Shown here one piece after another: positions 3,957-18,844 of a DNA stretch of 64,000 nucleotides (position 1 is the stretch's first letter; every line of letters begins with the position of its first letter). The stretch is from Sediminispirochaeta smaragdinae DSM 11293. Its GTDB lineage: Bacteria; Spirochaetota; Spirochaetia; DSM-16054; Sediminispirochaetaceae. Both the position numbers and the translations under genes were made by a program. The stretch lies in the NCBI RefSeq assembly GCF_000143985.1, contig NC_014364.1:4414582-4478581 (forward strand), given 5' to 3'. Under the pieces are notes generated by a model. The model searched no databases. It was not told where the DNA came from and saw only the letters and a list, made by a program, of their open reading frames with translations.

Positions 3957-4249
3957 TAAGCATTCAGTTCCGACTCTTTATATAGAGTATGCTTCACCGA
4001 TCTCAAGGTCAACAGGAGCTACAGAACTACTGGAGAGAGAAATTCGGAGACGCTCCCGAGTCGTTGGAATCTTCCCCTCGGCGGAGTCTTACCTGTGAAT
4101 ATTGTAAATTATGAGATAGACAGCATTTTCTTTGTGTTCAGATAAGCGAAACAGCCGACTTTCTTTGTTGTAGACTTTTTAACGTATGCTTGATAGCCAG
4201 ATTGATGTAACCAATAACAATTGAAAGAGCGTTTGGAATGTCAAGCTGG
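3957..4249. other. Non-coding stretch between the exchanger and the pseudogene
   Basis: No intact gene was found. The exchanger promoter probably lies at 3975-4000. The minus-strand codons of 4140-4245 contain a run like IPNALSIVIGY that might be a decayed C-terminal piece of the adjacent nitroreductase remnant, but this is too degraded to assert. Confidence 0.35.
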
Positions 4250-4436
4250 CTACGTAACACCTACCAAATAAGCCTGCTTAATGTTCTCCAGCGTTTCGCT
4301 ACCCGCAATAAAGATCTCCCATGGTTGCGTATTGGCTCAGGAAGGGGCACACCGCATCGCTTAAGATAGCAAGGAGCGTGTCCCTGTCAACCACGTCCGA
4401 TTTGAATGCCCGCAGGAACGGCGGGCTTGTAATACT
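4250..4436 (-). pseudogene. Nitroreductase remnant, frameshifted and truncated
   Basis: Reading the minus strand with frame changes gives the N-terminal third of a nitroreductase: VLQARRSC, then after a frameshift RAFKSDVVDRDTLLAILSDA, then after another frameshift RCAPS, a TGA where the family has Trp, and ANTQPWEIFIAGSETLENIK up to a stop at 4250-4252. RRSxRAFK, DRDTLLAIL and NTQPWE are hallmarks of FMN-dependent nitroreductases. The remnant begins about 20 nt after the SDR gene on the same strand, so the two probably formed one operon. With two frameshifts and one nonsense codon it cannot make a functional enzyme. Confidence 0.85.
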
Positions 4437-4456
4437 TTACTACACCGCTAATGTAA

Positions 4457-5299
4457 TCATTCGAAATCGGTCCCAAGGGATGTAACTTTCCATGCTTCAA
4501 AATCTTTTTTCAATGCGTCGATTTTATTAAATATCCATTCATAAGCGTCTTTACCTAGAAGCAAATGCATTGGCGGTTCTTCAGATTCGACGACCTCGAT
4601 GAGAGCCTGGGCAGCTTTTACGGGGTCTCCTGCTTCGTGCCCGCCTCCCTGAGCGGCGGCCGCCAGTCTTTGTCCGACTATGGTTTCTTTGTAATCTTCA
4701 ATAGCAGTCTGTGTTTTTACAGATGAACGACCTGACCAATCTGTCCTGAACCCACCTGGCTCAATAAGGGTGACTTTTATGCCAAATGGCGCGAGCTCCT
4801 GAACAAGTGTTTCCGAAATGCCTTCGACCGCATATTTTGTGGCATTGTAGTAACCAAGGGTTGGAAATGACATCAAGCCCCCAATTGACGAAAAATTGAT
4901 GATATGTCCCGATCTCTGCTTTCTCATGTAAGGCAAAACCTGAGTGGTCACACTCATAAGCCCCCAAAAATTTATCTCAAACATTTTCCGAATTTCTATT
5001 TCAATGCTTTCTTCAACAGAACTGAAATAGCCAATACCCGCATTGTTTACCAATACATCGATACGTCCGAATTTCTCCACCGCCGCCTTGACCGCTTCAC
5101 TGACCTGAACGTTATCAGTTACGTCCAGCGTGAGTGCCAACGCGTTTTCTTTATTCGTTACCAAATCTTCAATTTTTGCTTTATCCCTTGCGGTAGCCAC
5201 AACCCTGTAACCTGCCGCGATCGTTGTTCTGGCGACCTCACGCCCAAAACCTGTCGAACAACCTGTAATAAACCAAACTTTTTCTTGACTAACCATCAT
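4457..5299 (-). CDS. Short-chain dehydrogenase/reductase
   Basis: A 280-residue classical SDR, an NAD(P)-dependent oxidoreductase of unknown substrate. Cofactor motif TGCSTGFG (12-19), NNAG (85-88), catalytic S138, and Y151/K155 in the YNATK motif are all present, followed by EPGGFRTDW. It resembles the SDRs often annotated as oxidoreductases acting on ketones or quinones. The start is supported by AGGAGG just before a double ATG. It is followed by the nitroreductase remnant, suggesting a former redox or detoxification operon. Confidence 0.9.
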   Translation of the reverse strand: MMVSQEKVWFITGCSTGFGREVARTTIAAGYRVVATARDKAKIEDLVTNKENALALTLDVTDNVQVSEAVKAAVEKFGRIDVLVNNAGIGYFSSVEESIEIEIRKMFEINFWGLMSVTTQVLPYMRKQRSGHIINFSSIGGLMSFPTLGYYNATKYAVEGISETLVQELAPFGIKVTLIEPGGFRTDWSGRSSVKTQTAIEDYKETIVGQRLAAAAQGGGHEAGDPVKAAQALIEVVESEEPPMHLLLGKDAYEWIFNKIDALKKDFEAWKVTSLGTDFE

Positions 5300-5392
5300 T
5301 ACCCCTCCTATCAGTTAATATTAGGATAATCCCTAGAGTAATATCTAAGTCAATACTTATTGGAAAGCGAAGTGGAGGGAGAAGGTTCCAAG

Positions 5393-6371: not shown

Positions 6372-6785
6372 ATGGAAGATGGAATTCTTGCCGATCTGAT
6401 TCGCGCGGTGGCAAGTCAACAATTTGCACGGTCCTCCGGGCCGGGAGGCCAAAATGTCAACAAGGTCAATACAAAGGTCTTGCTGCGCATTCCCCTGGGA
6501 AAACTCGGCCTTTCCGAAAGCCAGCTTGCCCGTCTCAGAAGCAAACTTGGTAAGCGAATCACCGGTGACGACGAACTTATCATAGAAAGTAGTGGATCAA
6601 GAAGCCAAGAGGCAAACAGGAAAGAAGCCATAGGCCGGGCTGCAAAAATCATATCCGCCGCCATTGTTCCGCCCCGGCCAAGGCATCCCACCCGGCCGAC
6701 AAAGGCATCACGACAGCGGCGTTTGGAAAAAAAGCAAGCCTCTTCCCGAAAAAAGCAGCTTCGACGGCCTCCTGCGGAAGAATAG
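6372..6785 (+). CDS. arfB: ArfB-type ribosome rescue factor (YaeJ)
   Basis: A 137-residue class-I release-factor-like protein. The catalytic GGQ loop (SSGPGGQNVNKV, GGQ 25-27) hydrolyses peptidyl-tRNA. There is no codon-recognition domain, and the tail is strongly basic (RQRRLEKKQASSRKKQLRRP), as in ArfB, where it enters the empty mRNA channel of stalled ribosomes. Length and layout match the family. No Shine-Dalgarno is visible; a promoter lies 6 nt upstream. The sugar island begins directly downstream. Confidence 0.9.
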   Translation: MEDGILADLIRAVASQQFARSSGPGGQNVNKVNTKVLLRIPLGKLGLSESQLARLRSKLGKRITGDDELIIESSGSRSQEANRKEAIGRAAKIISAAIVPPRPRHPTRPTKASRQRRLEKKQASSRKKQLRRPPAEE

Positions 6786-6803
6786 GATTGGCTTCAGTGC
6801 CCT

Positions 6804-6844
6804 TCCGATAGCGCCTTAAGCTCCGGAAGGGTAGCGAAAAAGTC
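6804..6844 (-). repeat. Copy 1 of a 41-bp repeat (GNAT 3' end)
   Basis: Matches 13689-13729 with 3 mismatches. Read on the minus strand it encodes DFFATLPELKALSE plus two residues and a stop, close to the C terminus of the GNAT gene at 13682-14248 (DFSATLPELKALSDK). It is an orphan fragment at the outer edge of the sugar island. Confidence 0.85.
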
Positions 6845-6848
6845 TTGG

Positions 6849-7499
6849 TTACGGTCGTTCAAACACAACTGTTCCAAAGTATTCAGGCCTATGGAAATCG
6901 GGATGAGGACTTTCAATCTTGAACATACTAAGAAAGTGTGGATCTTTCAATTCGTCCCCACATTTATAGAAGTTGGCCCTAAACGCTTTCCCTCCTGGTT
7001 CATGTAACGGTGTACCCTGAAAAAGTTTCAAAGGAATATCGACCGTGATGGTCCATTCTTTTATGTACTTTTCTTCAAAGGGCTCCCTTCCTATAGAAGA
7101 CAGGGATGTTATAGTTGTTGCTTCTGCCATCGGCCTACTGTCCGCTCTACACGTCCCGTATCCTAAATAGACAGTCCCGATTGAATTCATTTCTATATTA
7201 AAATAGCTGCCGTTGCCAGGATCAATGAAAAACTCAACACAACTATCCAAATGAACGGGATCATTCGCCATCCGGAATTTCGCCCTGGTCGTCCTCTCGC
7301 GAACGGTAAATTTCAGATAGAGGTCATTATCACTCCACCCTGCCCTGACCGTTACTTTAGGCTTATAAGGATACTCCTCCCAAGAGGCAATACCAATGGA
7401 TTCAGCCAGGATATTTTCATTCATATATACATCGACTTCATCGAGATTCCCATTACCTCCCGAAAAATCTATGTATTTAAACAGGATGCATTTCCCCAT
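6849..7499 (-). CDS. CBM9-like carbohydrate-binding protein
   Basis: About 216 residues with no signal peptide, resembling the family-9-like carbohydrate-binding fold often annotated as carbohydrate-binding family 9-like protein. Typical features are WSDNDLYLKFTV, DSCVEFFIDPGN, the middle WTITVDIPLKLF, and the C-terminal RANFYKCGDE with PDFHRPEYFGTVVF. It is the last gene of the sugar operon, starting 7 nt after the Gfo/Idh stop. ATG 7499 is preferred; a TTG at 7517 would overlap the upstream gene. The absence of a signal peptide suggests a cytoplasmic or non-classical role, which is unresolved. Confidence 0.7.
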   Translation of the reverse strand: MGKCILFKYIDFSGGNGNLDEVDVYMNENILAESIGIASWEEYPYKPKVTVRAGWSDNDLYLKFTVRERTTRAKFRMANDPVHLDSCVEFFIDPGNGSYFNIEMNSIGTVYLGYGTCRADSRPMAEATTITSLSSIGREPFEEKYIKEWTITVDIPLKLFQGTPLHEPGGKAFRANFYKCGDELKDPHFLSMFKIESPHPDFHRPEYFGTVVFERP

Positions 7500-7506
7500 T
7501 ATATTT

Positions 7507-8505
7507 CTATGCCTCAATTATTTTGTGATCTCTAGCAGAAATATGGATTGCGTCAATTATTTTTGTTATGTATTCACCATGGATATGGTCTGATTCAGGT
7601 TTTTTCCCTTTTCGAATATGGTCTATAAAATCAAATAACATGAGGCTCGGAGCTCCCAGCATCCTACCATCTACCGAATATCCAAGGGTATGAAGATTCT
7701 TATATTCTCCTCCATACTGCTTGACCATTTGATCCTGCAAGTCGATGTAATAACTATTTTTAGATCCGATAATCTCTACTTTTAAATCATACACAAGTGG
7801 CAGTGTATTTTGTAGTGTCCATGTGCTGTTGAAACTTGCAGCAAAACCTGAATTAAATTCCAAAAGTGCCTTCATAGAATCATAGGTTTCAATTCCCATC
7901 GTTTTAAGCACACCCTCTCCAGCCCAACCGTAAATACGTTTGATTTGATCGCCGGTCAGCCAGCACACAAGATCAATGGCATGGGGAAATAAAAACCAGC
8001 CGGGAGATGAGAGCTTAGCCCAAGGTAACATCTCCGTGGGCACAAAAATAGTGTCATTCAGTGTAACATTAATCGAAACGACCTTGCCAAGATTACCTGA
8101 AGCAATCTCATTTTTCACTGCAACGAAAGGAGCATTCCACCGGTTCTCAAAGGCAACCATACAGAGTACGTCATGTTCCGTTATGGTCCTTGCTATCAAA
8201 GAAGCATCCTCACTATTGGTTGCCAGAGGTTTTTCTACCAAAATATGACAACCGGCTTCAGCCGCACAGAGAGAGGGTTCGAGATGGAGGAAATCAGGAG
8301 TTGCAATAATAACGGCATCAAGGTTTGCATCATCAAACATCTTTCTATAATCGCCGTACGTCCTTATTCCTTGCTGACCGAATTTCCCAAGTTTTGTCTG
8401 ATCGGCATCGCAGATTGCTGTTAATTCAGCATATGAGTTTTGCGAGAGTGTATCTGCATACATAGATCCTCTAATTCCCGCTCCGATAATTCCAAAATGA
8501 ATCAT
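7507..8505 (-). CDS. Gfo/Idh/MocA-family sugar dehydrogenase
   Basis: A 332-residue NAD(P)-dependent oxidoreductase. The N-terminal Rossmann fold starts FGIIGAGIRGSMYADTL. The family motif EKPLA is present, preceded by IIATPDFLHLEPSLCAAEAG. The C-terminal alpha/beta domain carries the probable substrate site (FPHAIDLVCWL). Such enzymes oxidise or isomerise sugars and inositols. The start at 8505 has AAAGGAG 7 nt upstream; longer in-frame sequence runs into the permease gene. It sits 14 nt after the second permease, so it probably acts on the imported sugar. AT-rich like its neighbours. Confidence 0.88.
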   Translation of the reverse strand: MIHFGIIGAGIRGSMYADTLSQNSYAELTAICDADQTKLGKFGQQGIRTYGDYRKMFDDANLDAVIIATPDFLHLEPSLCAAEAGCHILVEKPLATNSEDASLIARTITEHDVLCMVAFENRWNAPFVAVKNEIASGNLGKVVSINVTLNDTIFVPTEMLPWAKLSSPGWFLFPHAIDLVCWLTGDQIKRIYGWAGEGVLKTMGIETYDSMKALLEFNSGFAASFNSTWTLQNTLPLVYDLKVEIIGSKNSYYIDLQDQMVKQYGGEYKNLHTLGYSVDGRMLGAPSLMLFDFIDHIRKGKKPESDHIHGEYITKIIDAIHISARDHKIIEA

Positions 8506-8519
8506 ATCGATCTCCTTTG

Positions 8520-9350
8520 TTATTGCTTTACGGCACCAGCCGTCATACCGCTGATGAGATATTTTTGTAGTACAAGAAAAAGAAACACAATCGGCAAAGC
8601 GATAAAAACAGACCCTGCCATAATAGTTGACCAGTCCGTAGTATACTGACCTTGAAAACTGGAAATCCCCAAAGAAAGGGTCCATTTGCTATACGATTTC
8701 ATGAAAACACTGGCAAAGATGTATTCATTCCAGCCAGTGATAAATGAAAATACAGATGTCACCGCAATTCCCGGGATTGTTAAAGGCAAAATAACCCGGG
8801 AAAAAACCTGAAACATAGTGCATCCCTCAACGATGGCTGATTCATCAAGGGTATTCGGGATAGCATTAAAGAATCCTTTTATCATCCACGTGCAAAAAGG
8901 TACGGCAAAGGTGATATATGCAAGAGCAAGTCCAAATAGAGTATTCAAAAGATGTAATTTCCCCATTAAGAAATAAAAGGGAATAATCATGACCGACCCC
9001 GGCAGGACTTGAGAAATAAGAATGATATAGCCAATGGTCTGTTTACCCTTAAAAGAATAACGGGATAAAGCATATCCACCGGGAAGAGCGATGAGCATCG
9101 AGAAAATTGTAGTCAGTAAAGAAACCACAAAACTATTCCAAGCCCAGCGGAGAAAGTTAAAATCACTTTGGCCATTACTAAACAGAATATTTTTGTATCC
9201 TGCAACAGAAGGCTCGTTCGGTATAATCCGTGGCGGATAAGCATAGACTTCTCCAGCCGGTTTAAAAGAAGTTGATACCATCCAAATAAAAGGGAACAAA
9301 GTGAAAAGGAGAACTATTATGACACCAATATATATCAATGATCTTTTCAT
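8520..9350 (-). CDS. Carbohydrate ABC transporter permease, MalG type
   Basis: A 276-residue inner-membrane protein with six hydrophobic segments. The N terminus (IVLLFTLFPFIWMVSTSFK) is typical of the MalG/LacG branch (CUT1 sugar permeases). The EAA loop, which docks the ATPase, reads DESAIVEGCTMFQVFSRVILPL. It starts 2 nt after the stop of the partner permease. Together they should form the transmembrane channel for the island's sugar. Confidence 0.92.
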   Translation of the reverse strand: MKRSLIYIGVIIVLLFTLFPFIWMVSTSFKPAGEVYAYPPRIIPNEPSVAGYKNILFSNGQSDFNFLRWAWNSFVVSLLTTIFSMLIALPGGYALSRYSFKGKQTIGYIILISQVLPGSVMIIPFYFLMGKLHLLNTLFGLALAYITFAVPFCTWMIKGFFNAIPNTLDESAIVEGCTMFQVFSRVILPLTIPGIAVTSVFSFITGWNEYIFASVFMKSYSKWTLSLGISSFQGQYTTDWSTIMAGSVFIALPIVFLFLVLQKYLISGMTAGAVKQ

Positions 9351-9352
9351 AC

Positions 9353-10231
9353 CTATGCACTCTCCAAATCACGCATATAAAATACCGTAAAAAGCAATGA
9401 GAATAACAGAAGGACACAACCTCCAGCCGCAGCAACCCCAAAATCAAAATATTTAAATGATGTTTTATACACATATATGGTCAAGATTTCAGTTGCTCGA
9501 GAAGGACCGCCCTCCGCCAAAAGATACGCAATAGCGAAATCCTTCATTGTCCAGATAATCAATAAAAGAAATACAACCTTTGAAACTGGTTTTAACATGG
9601 GAACAGTGATATCTCTAAATTTTTGAAATCCGGAAGCGCCGTCCACAGTTGCAGCTTCATACAGCTCTTTAGGAATGCTCTGGAGTCCTGCCAAAATCAT
9701 AATAGCAACAAACGGAAAGCCCTTCCAAATATTTACAACCATAGCGGCCGGCAGAGCCGTTCCTGGATCCTCAAGAAAGCGAACATTTTCATGCAGTATA
9801 TGAAAATTTGTTATGATATAATTGATAATTCCAAATTCCTGATCATACATGAGTATCCACACTAAGCAGGCAACGACTTCCGGTATTGCCCACGGAATTA
9901 TTATTAGTGCCCGTGCAAGTGCCCTTCCTTTAAATTTCAAATTTAAAAGAAAAGCAACAAGATACCCTAATACAAATCGAAAAAATACTGTTACAGAAAT
10001 ATAAATGAACGTCTTTCCCAAAGATGATAAAAAGGCTTTATCAGAAAAAAGATGGAAAAAATTCTTCAGTCCGACAAACGTTGTATTCGGTCCTTTTTTA
10101 GGAAGATACCAATACTGTATACTCATTAAAACTGTTTTCGAAATCGGATAAATCAAGAAAACAAGAATGACTATGATGAGAGGAAAAAGAAATTGCGTTG
10201 GAAATTTATTAAAGATGCGGGAATCACTCAT
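9353..10231 (-). CDS. Carbohydrate ABC transporter permease, MalF/UgpA type
   Basis: A 292-residue permease with about six membrane segments. The N-terminal FLIYPISKTVLMSI, the central RALIIIPWAIPEVVACLVW, and the EAA loop YEAATVDGASGFQKFRDITVPML are typical of the CUT1 MalF/UgpA branch. It is the first permease of the operon, 69 nt after the binding-protein gene with a strong hairpin in between. No ATPase gene accompanies the pair, so a shared MsmX-like ATPase encoded elsewhere is expected. Confidence 0.92.
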   Translation of the reverse strand: MSDSRIFNKFPTQFLFPLIIVILVFLIYPISKTVLMSIQYWYLPKKGPNTTFVGLKNFFHLFSDKAFLSSLGKTFIYISVTVFFRFVLGYLVAFLLNLKFKGRALARALIIIPWAIPEVVACLVWILMYDQEFGIINYIITNFHILHENVRFLEDPGTALPAAMVVNIWKGFPFVAIMILAGLQSIPKELYEAATVDGASGFQKFRDITVPMLKPVSKVVFLLLIIWTMKDFAIAYLLAEGGPSRATEILTIYVYKTSFKYFDFGVAAAGGCVLLLFSLLFTVFYMRDLESA

Positions 10232-10261
10232 GAACGCTCCTTTTGAACCTGGTGCAGCAAA

Positions 10262-10292
10262 GACTACAGGATGTTTTTAGCATCCTGTAGTC
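10262..10292 (-). other. Intercistronic hairpin between binding protein and permease
   Basis: A perfect 12-bp inverted repeat, GACTACAGGATG and CATCCTGTAGTC, with a 7-nt loop. On the minus strand it is followed by only three T residues, so it is more likely an mRNA-stabilising or partial-termination element that favours binding-protein expression over the permeases, as known for malE-malF. Confidence 0.7.
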
Positions 10293-10300
10293 GATAATAT

Positions 10301-11620
10301 TTAGCGCTCCATTACCACTTGCATCTCTTTCTTGGCCCCTTCCAAAATAGCCGTAGCATCTGCATCTGCTGATGAAAAAATACGCTGAGTTGCTTCTATC
10401 ATGATTTGCTGCAATTCTCCGATCTGGGGGATGGAAGGGTCACTGATCAGAGGATCATAGTAATTGGCGATGAAATCATAAAACTGATAAGCAAGCTTAT
10501 GTGTGGCTTTATAATTCGACTCGGTTACATATGACTTGCTGTTGGGAATCATACCACACTCGGCAATGATCTCCTGTGCCTCTTTTGATGCCATCCATTT
10601 AAGAAAATCCCAAGCTTCTTTCTGGTGTTCGCAATTTTTGCTGATGACCGTGATAAGGGGATATTGAGAAGGATTCGGTCTATATGTCTTGCCTTCATAT
10701 TCCACAGAGGGCTGTGGAATGAGACCTACATCTTCAAGGAGAGCAGGATCACGTGATTCGGTCATTCCAATGAACCAAGGTCCATCAAGATTAAATGCGA
10801 TCTTCCCATTCCAAAATAATTCCCGCACATCTTTTTTATCTTTAAGAACCCTGGCCGATTTATCCTGAAGGATCATATTTTGCCACCATTGTGCCGCCCA
10901 AATATTGGCCGGATCGGTCACATTGATACGATCCGCCGTGAAAGGTCCCTTTTCCCCGGGAAAATAGAGGCCTCCTGAAATAACTCTGGCTATAAATCGT
11001 GCCCATTCGGAAACAACAAAGCTATGAGAAGAAACCAAAACTCCAAACCCTGATACGTTGTCGTTTGTGAGTTTCAAGCTTGCGTTCCTAAAATCCTCCA
11101 CACTTTTAATCGAAGCAGGATCTACGCCTGCCTTTTCTAATATTGATTTTCGATAAAACAGGCCAGTTGTTCCCCAAGCGTAATTTGAAAAGGCAACATA
11201 ATCACCGTCATATTTACACTCGTCCTGCCCGACCAAATCTTTCTCATAGGGTGTCCCCACGATTTTATCGTTCAGATTTAAAAATGTTCCTTCCGGTCGA
11301 AGTGCATGGTATTGTGCAATATTCGAAGTATACATCTGAATAATGTCAGCCTCATTATTACTCAGTATCTCCGTGGTCATATTGTCCCAAAAACTGCTCC
11401 ACCCCGCTCCATAAACCTCTATCTCAACATTCGGGTTTTTTGCATTGTAGGTGCTAATCAATTTGTCGATTACAGCCTTATGCGGAGCTTCAACATAAAT
11501 TGAAGTAGCGAAGGATAGCTTTATCCTCCCTCCATCATCATCCTGATTACCGCTTGCAAACAGCATGGTTGATACCGACAGCAAAACGATAACCAACGTC
11601 CCTACAAGTGTCTTCTTCAT
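10301..11620 (-). CDS. Extracellular sugar-binding protein (SBP family 1)
   Basis: A 439-residue ABC binding protein. The signal peptide MKKTLVGTLVIVLLSVSTML ends at a probable FA-SG cleavage site; there is no lipobox cysteine. The mature part looks like family-1 sugar-binding proteins (maltose/sn-glycerol-3-P type): AGWSSFWDNMTTE near the start, WNGKIAFNLDGPWF in the middle, and EAWDFLKWMASKEAQE followed by CGMIPN near the end. The start at 11620 has AGGAGG 5 nt upstream. It is the first gene of the sugar operon; a promoter lies at 11649-11677. The ligand is unknown. Confidence 0.9.
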   Translation of the reverse strand: MKKTLVGTLVIVLLSVSTMLFASGNQDDDGGRIKLSFATSIYVEAPHKAVIDKLISTYNAKNPNVEIEVYGAGWSSFWDNMTTEILSNNEADIIQMYTSNIAQYHALRPEGTFLNLNDKIVGTPYEKDLVGQDECKYDGDYVAFSNYAWGTTGLFYRKSILEKAGVDPASIKSVEDFRNASLKLTNDNVSGFGVLVSSHSFVVSEWARFIARVISGGLYFPGEKGPFTADRINVTDPANIWAAQWWQNMILQDKSARVLKDKKDVRELFWNGKIAFNLDGPWFIGMTESRDPALLEDVGLIPQPSVEYEGKTYRPNPSQYPLITVISKNCEHQKEAWDFLKWMASKEAQEIIAECGMIPNSKSYVTESNYKATHKLAYQFYDFIANYYDPLISDPSIPQIGELQQIMIEATQRIFSSADADATAILEGAKKEMQVVMER

Positions 11621-11648
11621 CGCGACCTCCTTTTTAGCGATTTTGCAT

Positions 11649-11677
11649 AATATAGTACGTTCAGTCATCATCAGTAA
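11649..11677 (-). promoter_or_regulatory. Promoter of the sugar-uptake operon
   Basis: On the minus strand TTACTG, a 17-nt spacer and TATATT, about 28 nt before the binding-protein ATG. The -35 is weak, which fits an activator-dependent promoter served by the divergent two-component system (inference). Confidence 0.4.
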
Positions 11678-11755
11678 CAACAAACAAAAGTACTAAAAAG
11701 ACAGGACATTAATACTAATTTCACCCTCAAAGATATGTATAGGGATCTTCTTCTT

Positions 11756-11783
11756 TTGTAAGAAAATAGCTCTATGGTATACT
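11756..11783 (+). promoter_or_regulatory. Promoter of the histidine-kinase gene
   Basis: TTGTAA (11756-11761), 16-nt spacer and TATACT (11778-11783). The kinase ATG begins 8 nt later without a Shine-Dalgarno sequence, so the mRNA is probably leaderless. Confidence 0.5.
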
Positions 11784-11791
11784 AATGAAAG

Positions 11792-13057
11792 ATGAAACAT
11801 GCTAATAGTTATGGCGGTGCCAAAATCTCCCTAACCAGTATTACTCTTATCATTCATATCGTTTGCATTTTTCAATATCATCAAACATCGCAATTCTCAG
11901 GGATGCCGCTATTTTATATACAGAGCGTGCTTGTTCTTCTTTTTATCGATGCTGTCATAGCAATAATAAACATCATAAAGCTTTTAACCATACCCAATCT
12001 TGCTCTGTTTTATCTCCGGGGTTTTATCATTCTCATCATTTCTTATACCATACAAGAAGATTTTCTACTGGAGATCCTTCTATACATAGATTATTCCATT
12101 CCTACCCGTTACCGTAACAACTGGAAATACAGCATCATGTATTTATCCTTGTATTTATGCCTTTTAGCCTTATTCCAGTTCCCCAATCCCTTATTTGGCA
12201 CAGCCTTTCTTTCCTGGAATTTTAAGGTTCCCTTGTTTTGGGACTACTCAATGTTCTTGCTCCTTACTATTCTCTTCACAATATCCCTGTTTTTCATGAT
12301 ATATTATCGTGAACAGCTGCTTCAGAGCCGCAGAGAACTCTCTTTGGAAAAATCAATTAAATCAAAATTATTGCACCTGAATCAGCGATTCCAGGATTAT
12401 GCTTATACTGCTGAAAATAACGCAAAACGAAAAGAGCGGAGAGTAATCACGCAAAAAATTCACGACTCCACCGGCTATAGCTTCACTAATATTATCTCGT
12501 TGATGGACGTAGCGATAAGTATCGGAGATGAAGATTTTGATCGCCTTACAGAAATTCATATGACAGCAAAAAAAGAAGCAAAAAACGGTTTGAATCAGAC
12601 TCGCAAAATACTTACATATACCAGAAACCAAGAACAGCCCAATACTATCGAGGATGAAGCCAGTATTCTTCATTTAATACGAACTTTTAGAAAGGTCACA
12701 AATATCGAAACACGCTTGGAGATGGTAAATTCCAAGCAATCCTATGGAAAGGTGACGGACGGTATTCTTTTTTCCATCGTTCGTGAAGCCTTAACCAATA
12801 TTTTGCAGCATAGTAATGCAGATAAGGTCTTCATCTACTTCGGTGAAGTAAGAGAGGATATTTTACTTTACATCAGAGATAATGGCAGGAATTATGGAGA
12901 AACAAACTTTGGCATCGGGCTGACTGGAGTTCAAGAACGAGTAGCGAGTGTGGGGGGACGTGTAACATTTCAATACTCTATTGACGGTTTTACCATCAAG
13001 GCGGAGATTCCTATAAATAAAGGGGAAAAAAAATATGATAAGGATTCTCATCGCTGA
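11792..13057 (+). CDS. Membrane sensor histidine kinase, NarX/DesK type
   Basis: A 421-residue kinase with about five N-terminal membrane segments (roughly 12-30, 41-66, 69-87, 113-130, 150-172) and no large external domain. A coiled linker leads to a HisKA_3-type dimerisation region with phospho-acceptor H224 (QKIHDSTGYS) and a C-terminal ATPase domain (SIVREALTNILQHSNA, RDNGRN, GIGLTGVQERV). It should phosphorylate the response regulator whose gene overlaps it by 23 nt. Divergent from the sugar operon, it probably senses the sugar's presence or uptake. AT-rich like the rest of the island. Confidence 0.88.
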   Translation: MKHANSYGGAKISLTSITLIIHIVCIFQYHQTSQFSGMPLFYIQSVLVLLFIDAVIAIINIIKLLTIPNLALFYLRGFIILIISYTIQEDFLLEILLYIDYSIPTRYRNNWKYSIMYLSLYLCLLALFQFPNPLFGTAFLSWNFKVPLFWDYSMFLLLTILFTISLFFMIYYREQLLQSRRELSLEKSIKSKLLHLNQRFQDYAYTAENNAKRKERRVITQKIHDSTGYSFTNIISLMDVAISIGDEDFDRLTEIHMTAKKEAKNGLNQTRKILTYTRNQEQPNTIEDEASILHLIRTFRKVTNIETRLEMVNSKQSYGKVTDGILFSIVREALTNILQHSNADKVFIYFGEVREDILLYIRDNGRNYGETNFGIGLTGVQERVASVGGRVTFQYSIDGFTIKAEIPINKGEKKYDKDSHR

Positions 13058-13679
13058 CGATCAGGAACTTTTTGCGGAAAGTTTAAAAACTCTTTTAACA
13101 ACATATACTGATGATATTGAAATCGTTGGAATCGCAGAAAATGGTCGAAAAGCTATTTCCTGGGTAGAAAACACTACCATTGACATCATCCTCATGGATG
13201 TCAAAATGCCGGAACTTGACGGGGTAGAAGCCACAAAAATCATTCTGCAATCACATAAGTCAATCAAAGTCGTTATGCTTTCCACCTTCAAAGAAATAGA
13301 TTTCGTCAAAAGGGCGTTACGCTATGGAGCTCTTGGGTATCTGCTGAAAGATATCTCTCCTACCGAATTAATTGCATCAATACGCGCCGCTTATAACGGA
13401 GCAACACAAATTTCCCCTGCAATAGCCGCCAACATAGTAGAATCAAAATATACCGACAAGGACAATAATGGAACATCCATAGAATGGTACAAAGATCTTA
13501 CCAAACGAGAAAAGGAAATATTTAAACTGATATCCCGTGGATATGATAATACCGAAATCGCCGATGAACTTTGTATCGCGTATCAGACAGTACGAAATTA
13601 TGTAAGTTCAATTATATCAAAGCTCGGTATTAAGAACCGCTATGAGATCATTAAACTGGCTAACAGAATGTTGAAGTAG
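13035..13679 (+). CDS. NarL/FixJ-type response regulator
   Basis: A 214-residue regulator. The receiver domain has acidic D8/D9, phospho-acceptor D55 (LMDVKMPELDG), the conserved T/S region (MLSTFKE) and lysine in YLLKD. The C-terminal LuxR-type helix-turn-helix is LTKREKEIFKLISRGYDNTEIA with YQTVRNYVSSIISKLG. The partner kinase is immediately upstream, with overlapping reading frames. The likely target is the adjacent sugar operon promoter. It is the last gene of the island before the GNAT repeat. Confidence 0.92.
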   Translation: MIRILIADDQELFAESLKTLLTTYTDDIEIVGIAENGRKAISWVENTTIDIILMDVKMPELDGVEATKIILQSHKSIKVVMLSTFKEIDFVKRALRYGALGYLLKDISPTELIASIRAAYNGATQISPAIAANIVESKYTDKDNNGTSIEWYKDLTKREKEIFKLISRGYDNTEIADELCIAYQTVRNYVSSIISKLGIKNRYEIIKLANRMLK

Positions 13680-13681
13680 CA

Positions 13682-14248
13682 TCACTTATCCGACAGCGCC
13701 TTAAGCTCCGGAAGGGTAGCTGAAAAGTCCCGATCGAGCATCTCCATGTAGATCTCATCGAAATAGCGGCCACCGATGCAAACACATTCGCTTCTCCTTC
13801 CAATTTCGCGAAAGCCAAGTTTCCGGTAGCAACGCTGTGCAACTTCGTTAAAGGAGCGGACCCTAAGCATAACATTGTGCAGGTTAAGGAGGTGGAAGGC
13901 ATAAGCTAAAAGCAGACCGATGGCCTCTCCCCCAAAGCCCTTTCCCCGCTGCGATTTCTCTCCGATGAAGATTCCCATTTCACCTCGGCTTTGGATTAGA
14001 TCGACATCCATCAGGCCGCAGCTACCGATCAACTGATCACCTTCCTTAAGAACGATACTGAAGTTGTAGCCCTCCTGTAACTTCTGAATCATATCACGCT
14101 CTTTATCCTGGGATATGATACCTGTGGCAAGCTGCAGATTTAGTGTAGTTTCGAGATTATTCACCCATGAGGTATAGAGCTCAAGGTCATCATCAGAAAC
14201 GGGAGAAAGGTAAAGACGTTCTCCCACAAGCTTTTGATAATAGGACAC
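13682..14248 (-). CDS. GNAT-family N-acetyltransferase (RimJ/RimL-like)
   Basis: A protein of about 188 residues of the Acetyltransf_3 branch, using acetyl-CoA to acetylate an amine (protein N terminus, ribosomal protein or small molecule; not determinable). It shows MGIFIGEKSQRGKGFGGEAIGLLLAYAF, whose Q/RxxGxG/A-like motif binds acetyl-CoA, and the C-terminal NEVAQRCYRKLGFREIGR. GTG at 14248 is chosen because AGGGAGG lies about 6 nt before it; the longer frame from 14275 would contain this ribosome site inside the gene. Its last codons are the second copy of the island-flanking repeat. Confidence 0.85.
   Translation of the reverse strand: MSYYQKLVGERLYLSPVSDDDLELYTSWVNNLETTLNLQLATGIISQDKERDMIQKLQEGYNFSIVLKEGDQLIGSCGLMDVDLIQSRGEMGIFIGEKSQRGKGFGGEAIGLLLAYAFHLLNLHNVMLRVRSFNEVAQRCYRKLGFREIGRRSECVCIGGRYFDEIYMEMLDRDFSATLPELKALSDK
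13689..13729 (-). repeat. Copy 2 of the 41-bp repeat, within the GNAT gene
   Basis: The last codons of the GNAT gene, matching 6804-6844 with 3 mismatches in the same orientation. The pair brackets the AT-rich sugar island. Confidence 0.85.
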
Positions 14249-14268
14249 CGGTAACCTCCCTTCAGAAA

Positions 14269-14297
14269 TTGACACTATCGTATCAAATTTCTACTGT
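14269..14297 (+). promoter_or_regulatory. Promoter upstream of the ECF sigma gene
   Basis: TTGACA (14269-14274), 17-nt spacer and TACTGT (14292-14297). A second candidate, TTGACG at 14315 with TAGTAT at 14336, has a short 15-nt spacer. Confidence 0.4.
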
Positions 14298-14355
14298 TCC
14301 GAATATTGCTGATATTGACGTATATTCTTTTTCACTAGTATGGTGACGGCGACCA

Positions 14356-15129
14356 ATGGAAGCATATGACGACGATTTTGCAGAGCTGCTCAGAAGCCAT
14401 ATACGGTACATCTACACGGTAGCCTTCCGCTTCTGCGCCGATGCTCACGATGCTGAAGATCTCGCACAACAGGCTCTTCTCTCCGCATGGGAAAAGCGAA
14501 GCCAGCTTGCGGAACCTGCAAAAATCTCCGCTTGGCTCAGACGGATTTGTCTGAATCTTTACCTTGATGCACAGAGGAAAGCGAGACACATTATCCAGAT
14601 CGAAGACGGTTTTGAGGATATGCTCACAGATATCGACCCACTGCCGGAACAGGAGCTTTTAGTTGATGAATCGGTACGGGAGCTGCAGGACGGCTGTTTT
14701 ACCGCAATGGCATCTCGCCTCACTTTGGCCCAGCGTAGCTCATTTATCCTGGTGGATATGTTTGGTCTTTCAATTGAAGAGGCGGCCGAAATCCTAAAGC
14801 TTTCTCAATCATCAATTAAATCTCTTCTTTTTCGCGCTCGTAAAAACCTAAATGCTTTTTTTGGGCATCACTGCCAGTGGGTTCTGCCGGAAAACTCATG
14901 CAGCTGTAAAGCGTGGTATGAATTCTCCAGACGAAGAGAGGATTTACGGGAAGAAGTACGAAAGCATGGCGGACCTCCGGATTTTGCCGATCCCGAATAT
15001 GCGGCAAAAAGCGATCCGTCTACCATGAGAAAGGTTCTTTCACTTTTCAGGAATCTACCGGAACGAAGACCCGATGCATCCTGGTATAGCAAAACGGCAT
15101 ATCTTGTCGGTTCGCTGTTAAAAAAATAG
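14356..15129 (+). CDS. ECF-type RNA polymerase sigma factor with C-terminal extension
   Basis: A 257-residue sigma-70-family factor. Region 2 shows YTVAFRFCADAHDAEDLAQQ and LRRICLNLYLDAQRK. Region 4 shows LTLAQRSSFILVDMFGLSIEEAAEI with LSQSSIKSLLFRARKNL. About 85 extra residues follow, beginning HHCQW, with CSCKAW and a charged stretch. Cys/His-rich tails occur in some ECF groups and may bind metal or sense redox state (inference). No anti-sigma gene is adjacent; the next gene encodes a Cys-rich DUF3795 protein, a possible functional partner. Confidence 0.88.
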   Translation: MEAYDDDFAELLRSHIRYIYTVAFRFCADAHDAEDLAQQALLSAWEKRSQLAEPAKISAWLRRICLNLYLDAQRKARHIIQIEDGFEDMLTDIDPLPEQELLVDESVRELQDGCFTAMASRLTLAQRSSFILVDMFGLSIEEAAEILKLSQSSIKSLLFRARKNLNAFFGHHCQWVLPENSCSCKAWYEFSRRREDLREEVRKHGGPPDFADPEYAAKSDPSTMRKVLSLFRNLPERRPDASWYSKTAYLVGSLLKK

Positions 15130-15193
15130 AAAAAAGAGATCCTACCCGCATCTTTGAAGCTTCTTCTGCATCTTTATTTGTATAAGGAGAATT

Positions 15194-15640
15194 ATGATGA
15201 AACGAACAGAAATTCTTGGCAAACTGGCCCCATGCGGGCTCGACTGTTCCTGTTGCGCATCTTTCAAAGGGGGCCCGATAGCGAGGCAGAGTCGCACACT
15301 TCTGGAAGCTTTAGGCGACTACCAACGGATGGCACAAAAGATGACCGCTTTTTTCGAACCCTTTGCCCACTTTGATTCTTTTCAAGAAATTCTTCGCTTC
15401 TTTGCAGATGCGAAATGCGACGGATGTCGATCGGGCGGCAGCAGATATCCAGATTGTGCGGCAAAAAGCTGTTTCAAAGAAATGAAGGTCGACTTTTGCG
15501 GAGAATGTAAGGAATTCCCCTGTTCAAGAAATCGATACAATGAAGACCTCCATAAGCGTTGGCTTGCAAACGGTGAATTCATAAGAACAAAGGGAATCGA
15601 ATCATTCTACGATATGCAGGCTGGCAAACCCAGATATTAA
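15194..15640 (+). CDS. Cysteine-rich DUF3795 protein
   Basis: A 148-residue protein with clustered cysteines: APCGLDCSCCASF (residues 12-24), KCDGCRSGGSRYPDCAAKSC, and FCGECKEFPC. This is the layout of DUF3795 proteins, probably metal-binding, with unknown function. Two consecutive ATGs follow AAGGAG. It lies 64 nt after the ECF sigma gene on the same strand and its stop overlaps the end of convergent panE by 4 nt. Confidence 0.8.
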   Translation: MMKRTEILGKLAPCGLDCSCCASFKGGPIARQSRTLLEALGDYQRMAQKMTAFFEPFAHFDSFQEILRFFADAKCDGCRSGGSRYPDCAAKSCFKEMKVDFCGECKEFPCSRNRYNEDLHKRWLANGEFIRTKGIESFYDMQAGKPRY

Positions 15641-18706: not shown

Positions 18707-18844
18707 ATCATCCTCCGTAGGTATAGGTTCCTTTGGCCAGTATACAATAGATCAGGTTTTTGAACGAGAAACAACGCTTTTTTTCCGCTGACATAAAGGT
18801 TGAAACTGTGTTCGCTCCAAGAGTATCGGTATATACTTATGACT

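Follow-up and report, generated by a model that had tools for sequence, protein, structure and literature searches.

Genes of the Island and Its Flanks

The window analysed here is a stretch of 64,000 nucleotides from the single-contig genome (4,653,970 bases; 4.65 Mb) of Sediminispirochaeta smaragdinae DSM 11293. Within it, arfB, which encodes an alternative ribosome-rescue hydrolase (6372–6785, plus strand, stop codon at 6783–6785; above the cut-off of the NCBIfam ArfB equivalog model and 97% identical in amino acid sequence in the congener), lies to the left of an island of seven genes (6845–13688; 6,844 bp), and a gene for a GNAT acetyltransferase (13682–14275, minus strand; PF13302; 93% amino acid identity in the congener) lies to the right, with its last codons and stop at the island junction. 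The GNAT gene is intact, as a first-pass annotation of this DNA had proposed, although its longest open reading frame spans 13682–14275 (197 aa) rather than 13682–14248.

The island encodes a CUT1 sugar ABC transporter, a MocA-type oxidoreductase, a CBM9 protein and a histidine kinase/response regulator pair. On the minus strand are the gene for the CBM9-domain protein (6849–7499; PF16011, E 6e-54), whose stop codon ends 4 bp from the left repeat described below; a GFO/IDH/MocA-family oxidoreductase (7507–8505; PF01408), which is inositol-dehydrogenase-like but below the NCBIfam cut-off; two CUT1 sugar ABC permeases (both PF00528), one MalG-like (8520–9350; MalG model below cut-off) and one UgpA/MalF-like (9353–10231; UgpA/MalF models below cut-off); and the ABC sugar-binding protein (SBP; 10301–11620; PF01547/PF13416). 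In the gap that separates the SBP gene from the first permease gene is a strong hairpin (10262–10292) of the kind that is common 3′ of highly expressed binding-protein genes. On the plus strand are a membrane histidine kinase of the HisKA_3/UhpB-NarX type (11792–13057; PF07730, with a weak PF02518 match below the Pfam cut-off and NCBIfam UhpB/MctS-like similarity below cut-off) and a NarL/LuxR-type response regulator (13035–13679; PF00072, PF00196), whose stop codon ends 9 bp from the right repeat.

The description of this block as a self-contained cassette for sugar uptake and regulation agrees with its gene content. From the SBP, the two permeases, the oxidoreductase and the CBM9 protein, the cassette is most likely to import and begin processing one sugar, and the divergent kinase/regulator pair most likely controls the transporter operon. 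There is no ATPase gene in the island; CUT1 systems often share one ATPase. Like other CUT1 sugar ABC operons accompanied by a two-component regulator, the cassette has an SBP, MalF/MalG-like permeases, a MocA oxidoreductase and a NarL-type kinase/regulator pair, but its particular combination of genes was not seen at five further CBM9 loci inspected in spirochaetes. All seven genes could be assigned and none is an integrase or other recombinase, in keeping with the first-pass annotation; nor is any of them a relaxase, transfer or other mobility gene. In a genome search for PF00589, the nearest match was ~628 kb away.

The Flanking Direct Repeat and the Edges of the Block

Copies of the GNAT 3′ end stand in the same orientation at both edges of the island, forming a direct repeat of 41 nt (6804–6844 and 13689–13729; 38/41 positions identical, 93%), as had been noted at the outset. 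The right copy lies inside the 3′ end of the GNAT gene on the minus strand. The left copy, also read on the minus strand, is an orphan beside arfB that reads …FFATLPELKALSEGH and runs on to a stop codon at 6794–6796. Matches to the 41-bp repeat occur at only two places in the 4.65-Mb genome, both at this locus, and its 15-bp core, CTCCGGAAGGGTAGC, occurs exactly twice with one mismatch allowed. The pair gave a BLAST E of 2e-10 within 20 kb, and no comparable pair (28–400 nt, at least 85% identical, at least 1 kb apart) was present in any of 22 other 20-kb stretches of the genome, drawn from 20 sampled stretches and the rest of the window. Chance origin of the repeat was rejected on its uniqueness to two places, its E value and the empty control stretches, and a genome-wide REP-like or common-terminator element was rejected because the repeat has two copies only. 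No tRNA target or known RNA motif was found at the site.

The block between the repeats extends to 13688 and not to 13681, where its end was first placed: the seven bases that adjoin the right repeat lie on the block side of the junction, and the GNAT stop codon (13682–13684) is among them. With the CBM9 and regulator stops 4 and 9 bp from the repeats, the block extends hardly beyond its outermost genes. Its lower GC content, which had been apparent from inspection, amounts to 39.7% in 6845–13688 vs. 49.1% and 47.9% in the flanks, and the proposed check of codon use gave a GC3 of 0.33–0.43 for the block genes vs. 0.44–0.58 for their neighbors. About 6% of control windows of the block's size have GC as low, so patches of high AT content are no rarity here, and composition alone is not strong evidence.

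The Restored Gene End

When the left flank and orphan copy are joined to the body of the GNAT gene, one intact open reading frame results in both species; it ends in …ALSEGH, and its stop lies 8 bp from the arfB stop, tail-to-tail. The present gene is instead open to a new stop at the cassette edge, where it ends in …ALSDK. Over the outer edge of the orphan lies a hairpin (6798–6833) with a perfect 10-bp stem (6798–6807/6824–6833), the left arm of which starts outside the 41-bp repeat and the right arm of which is inside. The orphan folds at −20 to −21 kcal/mol, and the GNAT copy, which lacks the 10-bp stem, at −11 to −12 kcal/mol; measured against shuffles, the stability of the hairpin in the window sequence is modest (z −1.9 and −1.4 on the two strands). 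Between the two species, none of the 20 stem bases is substituted, vs. 9 of the 27 non-stem bases of the orphan repeat (Fisher p 0.006); the right stem arm is coding in the GNAT copy, and the orphan itself is non-coding. The unchanged stem points to the arfB side as the place where the gene end originally stood, and the same conservation suggests that the hairpin still serves the convergent transcripts. A canonical U-tract terminator was rejected, there being no T run on either strand.

Distribution in the Congener and Other Relatives

The genomes compared within the family were those of one congener and, as drafts, of two members of another genus. Gene order, block, both repeats and junctions are all shared by the congener, at ~95% DNA identity, which places the insertion before the split of the two species. 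Synonymous divergence (dS) between them is 0.14–0.33 for block genes, within the range of the flank genes (0.01–0.44), so the block has been inherited vertically since the split; a separate insertion in each species was rejected on the identical junctions and the flank-like dS. The site in the congener is thus filled, with one GNAT gene and the same orphan, and arfB–GNAT adjacency was seen in no other genome searched. In the two drafts of the next genus, arfB and the GNAT gene are on separate contigs with no common neighbors. No empty site was found in relatives, as only the filled congener site was recovered and a GNAT contig search returned distant relatives only; the ancestral arfB–GNAT neighborhood is therefore a reconstruction.

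The CBM9 protein was not detected in the two same-family drafts of the other genus, a soft absence because both are drafts and one is 68% complete. The SBP had no match at E 1e-60 outside the genus among 393 genomes of the phylum. Plasmids yielded nothing close as a donor of the SBP (<25% identity among the best matches), and 299 genomes of the Paenibacillus class yielded no match at E 1e-30 in a search run without a positive control. The distribution of the CBM9 protein and the SBP, together with the low GC and GC3 of the block, is consistent with a foreign origin of the cassette.

Origin of the Island

We consider it probable, with fair assurance, that a GNAT gene lying tail-to-tail with arfB received a single insertion in its 3′ end, and that 41 bp were duplicated. 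Before the split of the two Sediminispirochaeta species, a foreign cassette for sugar uptake and sensing would have entered the last GNAT codons, duplicating 41 bp of the gene end. One copy would have stayed beside arfB as a non-coding relic with the original stop and hairpin, and the other would have stayed on the GNAT gene, which then came to end on a cassette-donated stop (…ALSDK). The first-pass annotation had proposed that the segment went in at the 3′ end of a gene and that this end was duplicated. This remains the most economical reading, given the restored GNAT/arfB pair, the hairpin over the orphan boundary and the identical congener junctions; the identification with an integrative element fares less well, as there is no integrase or mobility gene.

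The first-pass annotation had also raised the alternative that the orphan is what remains of a second GNAT paralogue: arfB would have been followed by a tandem GNAT pair, with the cassette arriving between the two or replacing one of them, so that nothing survives of the second gene but its 14 final codons. The orphan does keep the GNAT frame through to its own, different stop, and abrupt edges are expected of deletions. Against this, GNAT similarity ends at 41 bp on either side in both species with no decaying upstream trace, the CBM9 stop codon starts only 5 bp from the orphan, and the closest other GNAT of the genome, encoded far from this locus, shares only 31% identity. Requiring a duplication, an insertion and a deletion, more events than the single insertion, and leaving no trace beyond 41 bp, a paralogue remnant appears improbable.

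Two routes share the weight of the single-insertion reading. Integrative elements are recognized by direct repeats of 8–60 bp, one copy of which completes the 3′ end of an undisrupted gene (PMC5704250), and the 41-bp repeats at both edges, together with the undisrupted target gene, fit this hallmark and resemble integrase-dependent genomic islands and IMEs at gene 3′ ends. The island could be what is left of a site-specific element, of the tyrosine-recombinase type, that brought the 41-bp GNAT end in its attP; its integrase would later have disappeared, or would have acted in trans. Unlike such elements, it has no recombinase, relaxase or mobility gene in it or nearby; its metabolic genes stop just 4 and 9 bp short of the repeats, too close for any remains to fit in between; the nearest PF00589 match is the one ~628 kb away; the genome contains no third copy of the repeat that would mark another element; and its target, a GNAT gene, is neither a tRNA nor a highly conserved housekeeping gene. 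This origin is possible but rather doubtful.

The other route is an illegitimate, replication-based insertion, in which a fork would stall at the arfB–GNAT hairpin, copy foreign DNA and return 41 bp upstream, so that the gene end is copied twice. Such an event would account for a duplication of arbitrary length, for the missing recombinase and for placement at a hairpin. It has precedent in E. coli, where illegitimate recombination has been put forward as the probable origin of most small variable segments other than mobile or repeated elements; some 10% of variable segments have direct repeats at their flanks (PMC2884548). The island shares with those small segments (PMC2884548) its ordinary cargo, flanking direct repeats and lack of mobile-element genes; it differs in its size (6.8 kb), its 41-bp repeat and its content of a whole operon with regulators, and in being present in both species of the genus examined rather than variable. 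No direct mark of template switching is seen, and the clean joins near both outer stop codons are left unexplained by this route, which we regard as plausible, if somewhat short of an even chance. The lack of a recombinase, the distance of the nearest PF00589 match and the tight edges of the block argue for illegitimate insertion or for a recombinase acting from elsewhere; of the two routes, we lean slightly toward illegitimate insertion. The island is an old and ordinary kind of genomic insertion. It offers one clean example of the addition of a metabolic operon, by which a halophilic anaerobic spirochaete would have gained sugar uptake with no visible recombinase and with the target gene kept in frame.

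Possible Exchange Between the Repeat Copies and Nearby Variation

At positions 13 and 17 of the repeat, the two species differ while the two copies within each species agree; the opposite pattern occurs at 0 sites. With the orphan and GNAT copies denoted o and g, and S. smaragdinae and the congener denoted 1 and 2, the distances are 3 for o1–g1, 5 for o2–g2, 9 for o1–o2 and 4 for g1–g2. In simulations without conversion, two or more such sites arose with p 0.010–0.018, for a pattern that was noticed after the fact; since positions 13 and 17 lie 4 bp apart, one conversion tract suffices. These sites give a weak hint that gene conversion may have acted between copies 6.9 kb apart. It is a long shot that the two 41-bp copies still recombine, whether by conversion or by loss and regain of the island, which would then be an integrase-free cassette able to leave cleanly with both neighbor genes restored. 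Were the repeats still exchanging, the locus would show in simple, natural form how an operon can be gained reversibly and without an integrase.

The surroundings of the island also differ between the two species. A 1.36-kb segment (4031–5390) with an open reading frame for an SDR oxidoreductase (4457–5299, minus strand) is missing from the congener; at its edges the alignment blocks overlap by 14 bases, and a short imperfect direct repeat is present (GCTACAGAACTAC/GCTACAAAACTAC). At 18749–18757, a few kb from the island, the window has 7 bp where in the congener there is a distinct sugar ABC cassette of 4.3 kb (LacI-type regulator, SBP and two permeases; congener contig C9, ~113836–118126); no clear flanking direct repeat was seen around this cassette. 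To the right of the GNAT gene, a sigma factor and the next small gene (14250–15640) are nearly identical in the congener, with dS of 0.04 and 0.01 vs. ~0.15–0.2 around them, which suggests that this region may have been exchanged recently between the two species.
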